Of a stretch of DNA of 64,000 nt, positions 3,580 to 7,400 are shown one piece after another. Positions within the stretch are counted from its first letter, which is position 1. Every line of letters starts with the position of its first letter. The stretch is from the NCBI RefSeq assembly GCF_900446215.1, contig NZ_UAQZ01000002.1, positions 62,001 through 126,000 of the forward strand, given 5' to 3'. The notes beneath the pieces were generated by a model. The model did no database searches. It worked only from the letters and a program-made list of their open reading frames with translations, and was not told the origin of the DNA. A program made the translations under genes and the position numbers. The DNA is from Burkholderia cenocepacia. Lineage in GTDB: Bacteria > Pseudomonadota > Gammaproteobacteria > Burkholderiales > Burkholderiaceae.

Positions 3580-4335
3580 ATGAGCGAAACGGAACGCAAG
3601 CTTTTCGCACGGCCGGCGCAGGCGTCGGCCGGCACCGTGCCGGCGCGGGCACTACCGGCCTATCAGCAGATCAAGCGCTACGTCGTCGAGCGGATCGCGA
3701 AGGGCGACTGGAAGCCCGGCGCCGCGATCCCGACCGAGGCCGAACTGGTCAAGGAATTCGGCGTGGCCCGGATGACGGTGTCGCGCGCGCTGCGCGAACT
3801 GACGGCCGAGCGCGTGCTGACCCGCATCCAGGGGGCCGGCACGTTCGTCGAGCGCCGGCATTACGAGTCGACGGTGCTGGAGATCCGCAACATCGCGGAC
3901 GAGATCGCCGAGCGCGGCCATCGGCACAGCGCGCGTGTGCTGCTGATCGAGCGCAGCGTCGAGCCGGACGCGATCGATGCGCTCGGACTGCGCGCCGGGC
4001 CCGTGTTTCATTCGCGTATCGTGCATTACGAGGAAGACGAGCCGATCCAGTTCGAGGATCGCTACGTCAATCCGGCCTTGTTTCCCGCGTATCTGGAACA
4101 GGACTTCACGCTCGAGACGCCGAATCATTACATGGTGCGACTCGCGCCGATCCAGCGGGCGGAGTTCCGGATCTACGCGGAGAAGCCCAACGCGCAGGTG
4201 CGTCGGCATCTCGTGATGGAAATCGGTGAACCGTGTTTGCTGCTACGACGCCGCACGTGGGTCGGCGAGCATGTCGCCACGTCGGTCAGGCTGTGGCATC
4301 CGGCGTCGCGGTTCCATCTGGCGGGCAAGATGTAG
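3580..4335 (+). CDS. GntR family regulator, HutC subfamily (UTRA domain)
   Basis: 251-residue repressor. An N-terminal winged helix lies at about residues 25-95, with the GntR pattern YQQIKRYVVERI, PTEAELVKEFGVARMTVSRALREL and RIQGAGTFV. It is followed by a UTRA effector-binding domain (VFHSRIVHYEEDEPIQFEDRYVNP; CLLLRRRTW). HutC proteins repress histidine utilisation and respond to urocanate. Here it probably controls the upstream transporter and lyase-fold gene, from which it is separated by 50 bp on the same strand. The ATG at 3580 is chosen because the domain begins shortly after it; a longer frame upstream only overlaps the preceding gene. The effector is not known from sequence. Confidence 0.9.
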   Translation: MSETERKLFARPAQASAGTVPARALPAYQQIKRYVVERIAKGDWKPGAAIPTEAELVKEFGVARMTVSRALRELTAERVLTRIQGAGTFVERRHYESTVLEIRNIADEIAERGHRHSARVLLIERSVEPDAIDALGLRAGPVFHSRIVHYEEDEPIQFEDRYVNPALFPAYLEQDFTLETPNHYMVRLAPIQRAEFRIYAEKPNAQVRRHLVMEIGEPCLLLRRRTWVGEHVATSVRLWHPASRFHLAGKM

Positions 4336-4569: not shown

Positions 4570-5142
4570 ATGCTGACACGTCTTCGTAACGGCATCCTTC
4601 GTGCACAGGACCTGCGCGAATCCGGAGCCGCTTCACCCACCCAGCGCCCGTCGATGGCGTGCGAACTGGTCGAGCTGAGCGCGAAGCGCGCGACGTGGCG
4701 CGTCCCCGTGCCGAATCAGGCGGACTGCTATCTGAAGGCCGAGCCGGGTGGACCCGAGCGGTTTGTCGTCCATATCGACGCGGAGACGTTCTATCGCCGC
4801 TGGCTCGAGACGAGCCCCACGTTCCCGAAACAGAATTCGCAGGATTGCGTACCGCGCCGGGCCATGTCGCTCGACAGCAAGTTCGCGGTAGCGGCCACCG
4901 CGTTCAGGGGCGGCCGCGACGCACCTGTGACGCTGCCGTCGGTCGGCTACTGGGCGGCGGCAAGCGGCTACGAGGTCGCGATGAGCGACGGCATAACGCG
5001 CACCTTCTGGCTGCTCGCCCATCGCGTGCGGTCGTTTCCCGTCAGCGTGGCCGACGCGAGCTGGGCGACGATACTGAACGGCATGGCCGGCATCGGCGTG
5101 GCGCCGATCGCGTTCAGCGAACTGTTCGCCCGGCGCGCATAA
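4570..5142 (+). CDS. Small protein of unknown function upstream of the retron-like unit
   Basis: 190 residues from an ATG preceded by a purine-rich AGAAAGAGAGGG. I do not recognise the family with confidence. There is no signal peptide or membrane helix; it looks like a soluble alpha/beta protein with VGYWAAASGYEVAMSDGITRTFWLLAHRV in the second half and a hydrophobic C-terminal stretch (GMAGIGVAPIAFSELF). The pattern is loosely reminiscent of proteins annotated as plasmid fertility-inhibition factors, but I could not check this. It lies on the same strand as the reverse transcriptase, with a separate promoter in between. It could be a retron accessory protein or an unrelated neighbour. Confidence 0.7.
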   Translation: MLTRLRNGILRAQDLRESGAASPTQRPSMACELVELSAKRATWRVPVPNQADCYLKAEPGGPERFVVHIDAETFYRRWLETSPTFPKQNSQDCVPRRAMSLDSKFAVAATAFRGGRDAPVTLPSVGYWAAASGYEVAMSDGITRTFWLLAHRVRSFPVSVADASWATILNGMAGIGVAPIAFSELFARRA

Positions 5143-5181
5143 GCGCGCCGCCGCCGCGCAGCGCGCATCGTCCGGCTCGAT

Positions 5182-5211
5182 TTGACACCTGGCGTCGCCG
5201 CCCATTAAAGT
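5182..5211 (+). promoter_or_regulatory. Sigma-70-like promoter of the retron-like leader
   Basis: A perfect TTGACA (5182-5187) is followed after 18 bp by TAAAGT (5206-5211), placing the start of transcription near 5218. This is about 180 bases before the reverse transcriptase start codon, leaving a long leader that holds several hairpins. It lies in the only intergenic space between the small unknown gene and the reverse transcriptase. Confidence 0.6.
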
Positions 5212-5217
5212 CGCGAC

Positions 5218-5395
5218 GCGGGGCGGTGGGTCAAGCACACGCCCGGAACAGGCAGCCGATGTTCCAGGACTACGGGGCTACCCCGTGGATCAGATCGATA
5301 CGCCGATGCGTCGCAAGTGCGCAAGTTGCGCGTTGCGCAACGACCGCTCTCGCAGCACCAGCCACGTTGGCTCATCGTCCCGCCTTCCTTTTCCC
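5218..5395 (+). ncRNA. Candidate msr-msd-like structured RNA ahead of the retron-type reverse transcriptase
   Basis: The leader holds four consecutive hairpins: GGAACA/TGTTCC at 5245-5250 and 5260-5265; an 8-bp stem with loop CTA at 5270-5288; a perfect 7-bp stem GTTGCGC/GCGCAAC with loop GTT at 5325-5341; and AGCCA/TGGCT with loop CGT at 5360-5372. Retron msr regions typically carry short stems with three-base loops and a branching G in an AGC context; AAGC occurs at 5233-5236, just before the first hairpin. I could not find convincing a1/a2 end repeats, so the boundaries and the msr/msd division are unknown. The role is inferred from position and structure only. Confidence 0.5.
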
Positions 5396-6745
5396 ATGCA
5401 CTCATCCCTGCGCGATACCACCCGCACGATTGCCGAGGCGATGCTCGCCGGTCCGCCCGAACGCGACGGCGTCGTCGCGCGGATGGCCGCCGTGCTCGGC
5501 GAGGCACAGCCGTGGGCGCCCGAATGCGCGGGCACCGCGCTCGCCCGCTTCGGCGCGGACTGGGCCGATACCGACACCGACGCGCTCGCGGCGCTCCTGG
5601 CCGAGGCGCCCGCGTTCGTGCGCGCATGGTATGGCGAGCGTCGGCCGGTGGTGATCCGCATCGTGCGGCGGCCGCTGGTCCAGCGACCGTTGCCGGCGCC
5701 GCTCGCGGGCTGCGATGTGCCGCAATGGCCGACGCCCGGCGATCTCGCCGGCTGGCTCGGGGTGAGCGCGCCGGAGCTCGACTGGCTGTCCGACCACTGG
5801 CGCGTCGACGCGCGCAGCGGCGCCACGCCGCTGCATCACTACACATACGTCGCGGTCGACAAGCGCAGCGGCGGGTGCCGCCTCGTCGAAATCCCGAAGG
5901 GGCGGCTGCGCGAAGCGCAGCGCCGCATCCTGCGCGGGCTGCTCGATCGCATCGCGCCGCATGGCGCGGTCCACGGTTTTCGCAAGGGGCACGGGATCGT
6001 GTCGTTCGCGACGCCGCATGCGGATCGCGATGTCGTCGTGCGTTTCGATCTCGCGGACTTCTTCGTGTCGGTGCGCGCCGCGCGCGTCCATGCGCTGTTC
6101 GCGACGCTCGGCTATCCGGCCGAAGTCGCGCGGATCCTCACCGGGCTCTGCACCAATCGCGTGCCGTCGGCGCGGCTGCTCGCGCCGGACCTGCGCGACC
6201 GGTTCGACTGGATCGGCCGTCAGCGCTATCGCGAACGGCATCTGCCGCAGGGCGCGCCGACGTCGCCGGCGCTCGCGAACCTGTGCGCGTTCCGGCTCGA
6301 CCTGCGGCTCGCCGCGCTCGCGCGTTCGGTCGATGCGACCTATACGCGCTATGCGGACGATCTCGCGTTTTCCGGCGGCGGCGCGCTTGCGCGCGACGTC
6401 GAGCGGCTGCAAGTCCGGGTCGCCGCGATCGCGCTCGAGGAAGGGTTCGCGCTGCAATTGCGCAAGACCCGCGTGATGCGGCGGGGCACGCGGCAGCAAC
6501 TGGCCGGCGTGGTCGTCAACCGGCATCCGAACCTGTCGCGCGACGCATTCGATCGACTGAAAGCGATCCTGACCAACTGCATCCGGCGCGGCCCGGCGTC
6601 GCAGAATCGCGATGCGCATCCGGATTTCCGTGCGCATCTGGCCGGGCGCGTCGCGCATGCGACGGCGCTGAATGCGGCGCGCGGCGCGAAGCTGCGCGCG
6701 CTGTTCGACCGGATCGTGTGGGACGCCGGCGGCGCGGGCCGCTGA
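5396..6745 (+). CDS. Retron-type reverse transcriptase with long N-terminal extension
   Basis: 449 residues. The reverse transcriptase core occupies roughly 145-390: GGCRLVEIPK (159-168), HGFRKGHGIV (193-202), FDLADFF (217-223), LPQGAPTSPALANL (283-296) and the catalytic RYADDLAF (318-325). Region AGVVVNRHPNLSRDAFDRL (370-388) corresponds to the retron segment that normally carries VTG, here LAG. The retron NAxxH motif is replaced by FATPH (204-208). The first ~140 residues form an extension like that of the large myxobacterial retron enzymes. There is no maturase or endonuclease domain, arguing against a group II intron. Retron enzymes make a branched RNA-DNA from the adjacent RNA and many act in phage defence. 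The ATG at 5396 has no clear ribosome-binding site; an upstream GTG at 5285 would run through the hairpins. Confidence 0.88.
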   Translation: MHSSLRDTTRTIAEAMLAGPPERDGVVARMAAVLGEAQPWAPECAGTALARFGADWADTDTDALAALLAEAPAFVRAWYGERRPVVIRIVRRPLVQRPLPAPLAGCDVPQWPTPGDLAGWLGVSAPELDWLSDHWRVDARSGATPLHHYTYVAVDKRSGGCRLVEIPKGRLREAQRRILRGLLDRIAPHGAVHGFRKGHGIVSFATPHADRDVVVRFDLADFFVSVRAARVHALFATLGYPAEVARILTGLCTNRVPSARLLAPDLRDRFDWIGRQRYRERHLPQGAPTSPALANLCAFRLDLRLAALARSVDATYTRYADDLAFSGGGALARDVERLQVRVAAIALEEGFALQLRKTRVMRRGTRQQLAGVVVNRHPNLSRDAFDRLKAILTNCIRRGPASQNRDAHPDFRAHLAGRVAHATALNAARGAKLRALFDRIVWDAGGAGR

Positions 6746-7070
6746 CCCGTCGGCCCGCGTCGGCGCCGGTCGGCAGACTTCTGCAACACGACGCCGCGCA
6801 CTGCTATCATTCGCGCCATGCCGCGCCCGTGCCAGGGGCGGCGAATCACTTGCCGCCGCCGTTCGCTTCATGCATGCGTACGCGGCGTGCCGCCCGTTGC
6901 CGGCTTGGTTCAAGCTGCCAGTGACGCACGACGTCGTTTAGTGCGCATCGCGCAAATCACGCCGGCTCAGGTGGACGATTCACCTATTTGACAGCCCCGA
7001 TCGGCGGAACTTCGTGGTAGGTTCGGCCATCGGAGCTTTTTGCAAAAACATGCCCAAAGAGGATGAATAC

Positions 7071-7400
7071 ATGACCCAGGCCCTGCAGGAACTCGAAGCA
7101 CAACTTCGGGACCTGAACATCAAGCTGTCAGAGGCGAAGCAGAAGGAGAAGCAAGCCGCGCTCGCGGCCTTCAAGGAACAGGTCGAGCTTTTGGGAATTT
7201 CGCAGCAGGAAGTGCTGAGCGCGCTCGGCTACATCGTCCAGCGCAAGCGCAAGGCGCCTGCCAAGTACTACGATCCGTCGACCGGCCGCTCGTGGTCGGG
7301 GCGCGGCCCGCGGCCGAAATGGCTCGAAGGCAAGGATCTCGAAGCGCTGGCGGTCGATCGCGAGGCCAAGACCTGGTGGCCCGGGGACGATCAGGGCTGA
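7071..7400 (+). CDS. H-NS family nucleoid-associated protein
   Basis: 109 residues. The N-terminal half is a charged coiled coil for dimerisation (ELEAQLRDLNIKLSEAKQKEKQ). The C-terminal half carries the H-NS DNA-binding motif in the form YYDPSTGRSWSGRGPRPKWL near residues 75-95. H-NS proteins bind and silence AT-rich, often acquired DNA. The ATG at 7071 gives the usual length; an upstream ATG at 7014 would add 19 residues that do not look conserved. A TTGACA lies at 6988-6993 without a clear partner hexamer. Its place directly after the reverse transcriptase suggests it travels with, or quiets, the accessory island. Confidence 0.88.
   Translation: MTQALQELEAQLRDLNIKLSEAKQKEKQAALAAFKEQVELLGISQQEVLSALGYIVQRKRKAPAKYYDPSTGRSWSGRGPRPKWLEGKDLEALAVDREAKTWWPGDDQG

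Follow-up and report, generated by a model that had tools for sequence, protein, structure and literature searches.

The stretch of Burkholderia cenocepacia DNA analysed here, 64,000 nucleotides long and called the window below, is part of a genome of 8.0 Mb. It holds a promoter, a structured RNA of about 166 bases (5218-5383) and the gene of a 449-residue YADD reverse transcriptase, which together are, as far as sequence can tell, a retron (see Table 1). The earlier note had read this place as a retron-like unit of promoter, leader RNA and reverse transcriptase, and the comparison with relatives bears this out in three respects: the promoter, the covariation of an msr-msd RNA that lies directly 5' of the enzyme gene, and the retron type of the reverse transcriptase.

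Table 1. Features of the retron and of the gene upstream of it (positions in the window)
Feature	Position	Strand	Basis
PFIN-family gene (plasmid fertility inhibition), 75 bases before a1	4576-5142	+	Pfam PF22162
Sigma-70-type promoter TTGACA-N18-TAAAGT (TTGACA 5182-5187, 18-base spacer, TAAAGT 5206-5211)	5182-5211	+	sequence, conservation in the genus
a1 arm of the a1/a2 stem, 16 bases	5218-5233	+	pairs with 5368-5383; 13 of 16 pairs with two-sided changes (26 leaders)
AGC, presumed branching G at 5235	5234-5236	+	CAAG in 26/26 leaders directly after a1; branching role by analogy with known retrons (PMC6868368)
msr hairpin H1, GGAACA ... TGTTCC (5245-5250 with 5260-5265, 9-base loop)	5245-5265	+	fold; sequence variable
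msr hairpin H2, GGGG-CTA-CCCC core (5270-5277 with 5281-5288, three-base loop CTA)	5270-5288	+	all cells of its 8 pairs paired (100%); two-sided changes in 3 of these pairs
Presumed msd template (approximate), copied from about 5367 backwards	5290-5367	+	position relative to a2 and known retrons
msd hairpin (outer stem 5313-5320/5346-5353, inner stem 5326-5331/5335-5340, loop GTT)	5313-5353	+	outer stem 88.5%, inner stem 96.8% of cells paired; compensatory changes
a2 arm	5368-5383	+	fold, leader alignment, covariation
Retron reverse transcriptase, 449 aa, YADD at residues 319-322	5396-6745	+	PADLOC, PDB Ec86, tree
N-terminal extension of the enzyme, about 104 aa	5396-5707	+	no known family; less conserved than the polymerase part

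The promoter, which had been placed about 180 bases before the enzyme, lies 184 bases from the ATG at 5396 and is conserved in the genus: TTGACA is identical in 22 of 22 aligned loci, the -10 element reads TAAAGT, TACAGT or TACATT, and the mean identity over 21 loci is 76% for the promoter against 50% just upstream of it. All 22 aligned loci share this ATG, whose frame in the window ends with the stop at 6745. Between a2 and this ATG (5384-5396), one can notice by eye no obvious Shine-Dalgarno sequence in the window and the 22 aligned loci; the start of translation may depend on processing of the RNA.

Folded alone, the leader of the window forms a 16-base stem, a1 with a2, which closes directly before the AGC. 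This fold is only moderately better than those of shuffled sequences (z -2.14; 5 of 200 shuffles were as good), which we counted against the retron reading. A single fold is weak evidence, and we therefore aligned 26 leaders: that of the window and those of 25 relatives, drawn from the loci of a scan with the best 80 of 561 confirmed places and chosen by the score of the a1/a2 pair or, for the weak L047, L048, L050 and L098, by eye. From the 32 leaders extracted we excluded two near-duplicates, L031 and L036, and the planctomycete forms of L088, L093, L097, L103 and L105. The a1/a2 score relied on mononucleotide shuffles and passed over many distant loci (for example L045, L055 and L058) which were later matched by the covariance model described below. 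RNAalifold, run unguided on the 26 leaders, proposed 35 pairs and found compensatory changes in 22. In the structure of 38 pairs which we named (985 cells in the 26 leaders), 92.7% of the cells are paired, against 76.8% when shuffled and 39-46% when slid, and 145 cells have two-sided changes against 49.8 in the shuffles. The count for the a1/a2 helix leans towards structure, since the alignment was chosen partly by that pair; helices 2, 3 and 4 played no part in the choice. We regard this covariation as decisive for taking the leader as a putative msr-msd RNA.

The arms a1 and a2 change together across the relatives, at a spacing of about 113-143 bases. After the CAAG common to all the aligned leaders, the next base is C in at least 90% of them. 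The AAGC seen earlier just before the first hairpin is confirmed, its AGC standing directly after a1, whose partner a2 is newly recognised. In retrons, the priming guanosine stands where a1 ends or just behind it, most often in the context TAGC, and also in CAGC, GAGC, CAGA or ACGC; the context here is AAGC just after a1, and a priming role is predicted for this guanosine. The hairpin detail of the earlier note is partly borne out: three hairpins had been credited with three-base loops, and two such loops are conserved, the CTA of H2 and the GTT of the msd hairpin. The hairpin H1 stands outside the 38 counted pairs; an A-T to T-A swap is preserved in it in L008 and L034. Two pairs of the outer msd stem are mismatched in the window's own sequence. 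Over 21 loci the leader is the most conserved part, with a mean identity of 90.1% against 88.2% for the polymerase part, 78.4% for the extension and 50-57% upstream. In a scan of the window with Rfam 15 no model reached its gathering cut-off, the only match within 5100-5500 being radC RNA (E 0.3). In the planctomycete locus L093, two leader-type RNAs stand in tandem (3709-3854 and 4028-4173) before one enzyme.

We built a covariance model of the leader, R1, from a seed alignment and ran it on 81 sources. Among the loci taken from the best 80 of 561 confirmed places, it matches 46 of the 50 clade loci outside the seed at E<=0.01, on the sense strand and upstream of the enzyme; the match is partial in L056 and L077. 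Four clade loci have no match at this threshold (L063, L096, L102 with E 0.018, and L104), and we counted them against the retron reading. No match at E<=1 was found in 13 loci of the myxobacterial-type clade (L135-L138, L140, L142-L147, L149, L151), and in 27 loci whose reverse transcriptases are other or remote ones the single match is L152, which holds two pieces of an enzyme related to the window's clade. The earlier note had proposed to model the leader across homologues and had tied its reading to a structure conserved upstream of their enzymes: the pairs formed in the alignment and the matches of R1 mean that the structure is conserved, and the retron reading survives.

Over 65 whole genomes of the genus, R1 found 43 leaders, one per genome, all beside the enzyme gene and about 10-30 bases before its matched start (in G031 the enzyme is split over two contigs). 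At least a piece of the enzyme is present in 45 of these genomes, and the other 20 have neither enzyme nor, with the stricter filters of this search, a leader; as such filters lose weak matches, the absence of a leader in a whole genome is no proof. The enzyme occurs without a leader in two genomes, in G008 with its first 113 residues unmatched and in G007 (locus L027) as residues 353-445 and 1-41. Both are remnants of the enzyme gene, and the leader was found in neither.

The YADD reverse transcriptase announced by the earlier note is indeed encoded, with 449 residues counted from the conserved ATG. A PDB search matched 14 distinct sequences, of which Ec86 is the best (E 5e-26). In PADLOC, the enzyme matches RT_other (PDLC02949; 1.6e-146, residues 5-444), RT_outgroup (PDLC03740; 2.5e-138, residues 11-442 on model positions 10-407 of 407, that is, over the full length of the model) and, as third-best, RT_XIII (residues 104-440). 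All 44 clade members scanned match both RT_outgroup and RT_other. Hence the suggestion that the enzyme belongs to an undescribed branch fails, as these two families of PADLOC-DB already cover it. Three NCBIfam retron models give 150-160 bits, each under its own curated cut-off, which was counted against the retron reading; the group II intron model TIGR04416 gives 34.9 bits for a cut-off of 300 and Drt2 30.4 bits for a cut-off of 390. The letters LAG for VTG and FATPH for NAxxH are as had been stated, and the lack of the usual VTG was again counted against the retron reading. Both departures are mild, because FATPH differs by one letter from the NATPH of Ec86 and the relatives vary similarly: the other eight sequences compared have AAPH (VEPH in L025) and LAG (LTG in L025). 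According to PMC6868368, VTG stands at the start of region Y in 14 of 16 validated retrons; it is no strict criterion, as Vc81 and Ec48 also depart from it.

In a tree of 57 rows, the enzyme groups with those of other Burkholderiaceae (100/100) and with those of Oxalobacteraceae (98/91), while the deep forks do not resolve. This phylogenetic placement, which the earlier note had proposed as a check, puts it with the retron reverse transcriptases and away from four reverse transcriptases of group II intron type. By their record titles, the relatives that carry the RNA belong to Pseudomonadota, Acidobacteriota, Planctomycetota, Verrucomicrobiota, Actinomycetota and Myxococcota, many of them being metagenome bins; as the scan covered the best 80 of 561 confirmed places, this makes at least six phyla. 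A search of 100 genomes of the order gave 26 with a match to RT_outgroup at E<=0.001; six of these exceed 300 bits, the window's own included.

The homology with Ec86 starts at residue 151 of the window's enzyme and at residue 50 of Ec86, which means an extension of about 100 residues. The N-terminal extension of about 140 residues reported before is therefore real, and its length comes down to about 100 once the usual N-terminal region of retron enzymes is allowed for. In the alignment of residues 1-104, the clade members have about 20-55% identity to the window; what they share is mostly a hydrophobic pattern, without any invariant residue and with one nearly invariant leucine. Compared with PDB, Pfam and NCBIfam, the extension gave chance-level matches only; we rejected the best one in PDB, a cytochrome c555 construct (E 0.0012 over 57 positions), as such. 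Scans of the family libraries found no known domain besides RVT_1 in the enzyme. In 21 loci of the genus, the divergence at codon positions 1 and 2 is 0.18 and 0.17 in the extension against 0.08 and 0.07 in the polymerase part.

The relationship with known systems is uneven. RT_outgroup and RT_other match the enzyme over nearly its full length, most of the extension included, but the library names the enzyme family only, without RNA partner or function. Type XIII retrons are defined by accessory proteins; none is conserved here, and the match to RT_XIII leaves the extension uncovered. With Ec86 (Eco1), the window shares a homologous polymerase core, YADD, xATPH and the succession of a1, presumed branching G, msr hairpins, msd and a2 (see also PMC6868368), but it differs by having no known effector, about 100 extra N-terminal residues and LAG for VTG. 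For myxobacterial retrons, PMC6868368 reports an enzyme with an N-terminal extension, inherited vertically and with a codon use like that of the host; the window's enzyme resembles those of Mx162, Mx65, Sa163 and Ne144 by its extension and its host-like third-position GC. The likeness to the long myxobacterial types suggested by the earlier note is a loose one, both having an extension. A separate clade (99/96 in the 57-row tree with its unsettled deep forks) unites 13 enzymes sampled in the phylum of Labilithrix, Mx162, Mx65, Sa163 and Ne144 not being identified among them; no R1 match was found in their loci, and in five of the 13 (from L135-L140) the extension is rich in lysine and arginine, a composition different from that of the window. 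L071 (Labilithrix) and L132, of the same phylum, fall outside this clade. A search for a1/a2 in the 13 loci gave no clear pattern, three of them exceeding all 15 of their own mononucleotide shuffles. The Mx162 transcript is given as 241 bases in PMC6868368, against about 166 for the leader of the window.

To look for partners in 72 loci (L039-L110 except L090, plus L162), we compared by BLASTP at E 1e-8 the 2911 open reading frames of at least 70 residues that lie no more than 5 kb from the enzyme. No widely shared gene was found in these 72 loci, several of which have short flanks: the widest cluster covers eight loci, at scattered distances and on either side. As the neighbours were compared by BLASTP without family-library annotation, partners sharing a domain but little sequence could be missed. 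In four planctomycete loci (L097, L100, L103 and L105), a common open reading frame of 235-278 residues follows the enzyme on the same strand after 10-190 bases and is a possible local partner there.

Downstream of the enzyme in the window, an H-NS-family gene (7059-7400) is kept in 20 of the 27 loci of the first set, mostly followed by an MFS gene, and in none of L038-L053; we rejected it as a partner, and it apparently stands beside the retron by synteny only. The distances of the enzyme correlate with those of the flanks (r 0.41; 137 of 5000 permutations as high, 17 loci). Those of the leader correlate with the enzyme (0.41; 1 of 5000 permutations) and not with the flanks (r 0.003), a value counted against vertical descent. 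Synteny with H-NS and MFS and the enzyme-flank correlation suggest descent in place, and on this synteny and modest correlation the retron is probably kept vertically. The GC3 of the enzyme gene (0.86) is host-like, its neighbours having 0.80-0.92.

Upstream, close homologues of the PFIN gene (E<=1e-8) are found in 22 of the 65 genomes of the genus, the window's included, 21 of them nearly full length and one partial (G014). Each of the 22 immediately precedes the leader and has the same orientation, and the 20 retron-free genomes of the genus gave no close homologue. From locus to locus, PFIN is more diverged than the H-NS and MFS genes that flank the unit. Leader and enzyme are present without PFIN in 21 of the 43 leader-bearing genomes; since they persist where it is missing, PFIN is not required. 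Short remnants of PFIN in L017 and L018 point to its loss there. Remoter PFIN genes are frequent elsewhere in the genomes of the genus, 48 of 65 having some PFIN. Among 7554 open reading frames of 81 loci, none is PFIN-like at E<=1 (the first genus set being represented there only by L020, L021, L022 and L024). We rejected PFIN as a general partner of the retron on this ground and keep it as a possible local partner in 22 of 65 genomes, where it may be a third part; this was counted against a purely two-part retron, as was the frame common to the four planctomycete loci.

At the level of sequence, a retron-group reverse transcriptase with a YADD core and, beside it, an msr-msd RNA with complementary a1 and a2 ends are both present; no type-specific effector of the tripartite retron types I-XIII was found, either as a gene widely shared in the 72 loci or as a known domain fused to the enzyme. 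We favour, with a probability of about 0.78, a resident and probably vertically kept two-part retron, in which the promoter is followed by the covarying msr-msd RNA and, directly after it, by the gene of the retron-type enzyme. Its working can be pictured as follows. The promoter would drive one transcript, in which a1 and a2 would pair while the enzyme would hold the msr with H1 and H2. By analogy with known retrons (PMC6868368), the 2'-OH of G5235 would prime DNA synthesis starting just 5' of a2, at about 5367. Synthesis would copy the msd hairpin and stop near 5290-5300, and RNase H would remove the template; the product would be a DNA hairpin of about 70-80 bases joined to RNA. As no separately encoded effector is conserved, the complex of enzyme and msDNA probably acts alone or via its own N-terminal domain. 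It may act as a phage sensor like other retrons, for which we see somewhat less than an even chance, or perhaps, with smaller probability, in a role other than defence.

Several readings compete with this one. That the N-terminal domain is a fused effector, in a layout comparable to the single-gene RT-TIR, RT-Toprim and RT-protease types, is a tentative idea which we consider rather unlikely: the domain is common to the clade members, matches no family and changes faster than the polymerase, but fast change fits weak constraint equally well, the alignment holds no invariant residue besides its one nearly invariant leucine, and the fused effectors known in PADLOC are recognisable families. About equally doubtful is the reading that the resident retron has nothing to do with phages and serves a housekeeping or ecological purpose. 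The position conserved beside H-NS, the constraint on the enzyme and its wide presence in the genus would fit such a role, and PMC4569332 offers a precedent, msDNA being linked there to intestinal colonisation in enteric bacteria; against it, the unit is reduced to remnants or truncated in G007 and G008 and, outside the genus, is patchy as defence genes are (a strong RT_outgroup match in 5 of 99 other genomes of the order). Of the two, phage defence seems to us slightly more likely than housekeeping.

It is improbable that the retron is tripartite in one Burkholderia group, with PFIN as an effector restrained by enzyme and msDNA. The strict position of the 22 close homologues and their absence from retron-free genomes speak for it, as do the faster divergence of PFIN and the fact that an annotated effector of the St85 family likewise sits upstream of the reverse transcriptase; the leader-bearing genomes without PFIN, the remnants in L017 and L018, the lack of PFIN-like frames in the 81 loci and the commonness of distant PFIN genes elsewhere in the genus speak against it. 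A speculative combination, in which we put limited belief, is that this lineage of at least six phyla never used a separate toxin, the RNA and the enzyme with its N-terminal domain being complete, and that PFIN joined it in one Burkholderia group as a new kind of partner against incoming conjugative DNA. Hardly credible, finally, is that the unit is no retron and that the RNA is a structured 5' UTR regulating in cis a reverse transcriptase of group II-like or DRT kind: the RNA does lie directly before the start codon and has the one weak match to radC RNA, below the cut-off, but the a1/a2 stem ends exactly at the invariant AAG, R1 is linked to the enzyme, retron families far outscore the group II and DRT models, and the tree places the enzyme with retron reverse transcriptases.

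The enzyme family is not new, being present in PADLOC-DB (2023), and PADLOC has msr-msd covariance models of its own (PMC9252829). What stands out in our comparison of sequences is a putative RNA without Rfam model in at least six phyla, the lack of a conserved effector gene and the unclassified N-terminal domain. The RNA may already be predicted in the Mestre 2020 classification or in the 2024 experimental census. The present explanation of retrons is mainly that they sense phages and hold a toxin in check, and a widespread lineage with a strongly conserved RNA and no conserved effector tests how general this model is. What retrons do that lack an effector and are inherited vertically is an old question, which can now be put to the test in Burkholderia and Paraburkholderia, as these are easily grown, and R1 is a means to locate and delimit the RNA in further genomes. 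Searched by title, the open-licence literature gave no paper on msDNA in Burkholderia; retron-type reverse transcriptases are no more than mentioned in PMC5877345. The retron-domain reverse transcriptase gp44 of the B. multivorans prophage KS5 (339 aa; PMC3091744) was set aside by its description, being shorter and phage-borne.

Many of the loci lie on contigs of about 1.0-1.5 Mb, including a circular replicon of 1.096 Mb in B. cenocepacia which we take to be the third replicon, pC3; L020 is on a contig of 3.75 Mb. In L026 (G043), a relative belonging to the same taxonomic order, the enzyme is interrupted by a stop in its middle, just after the YADD region, yet the leader matches R1 well. A match of 51 C-terminal residues at 86% identity, perhaps another remnant, lies on the 848 kb replicon of B. 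pyrrocinia (NZ_CP150851.1, 750381-750533).
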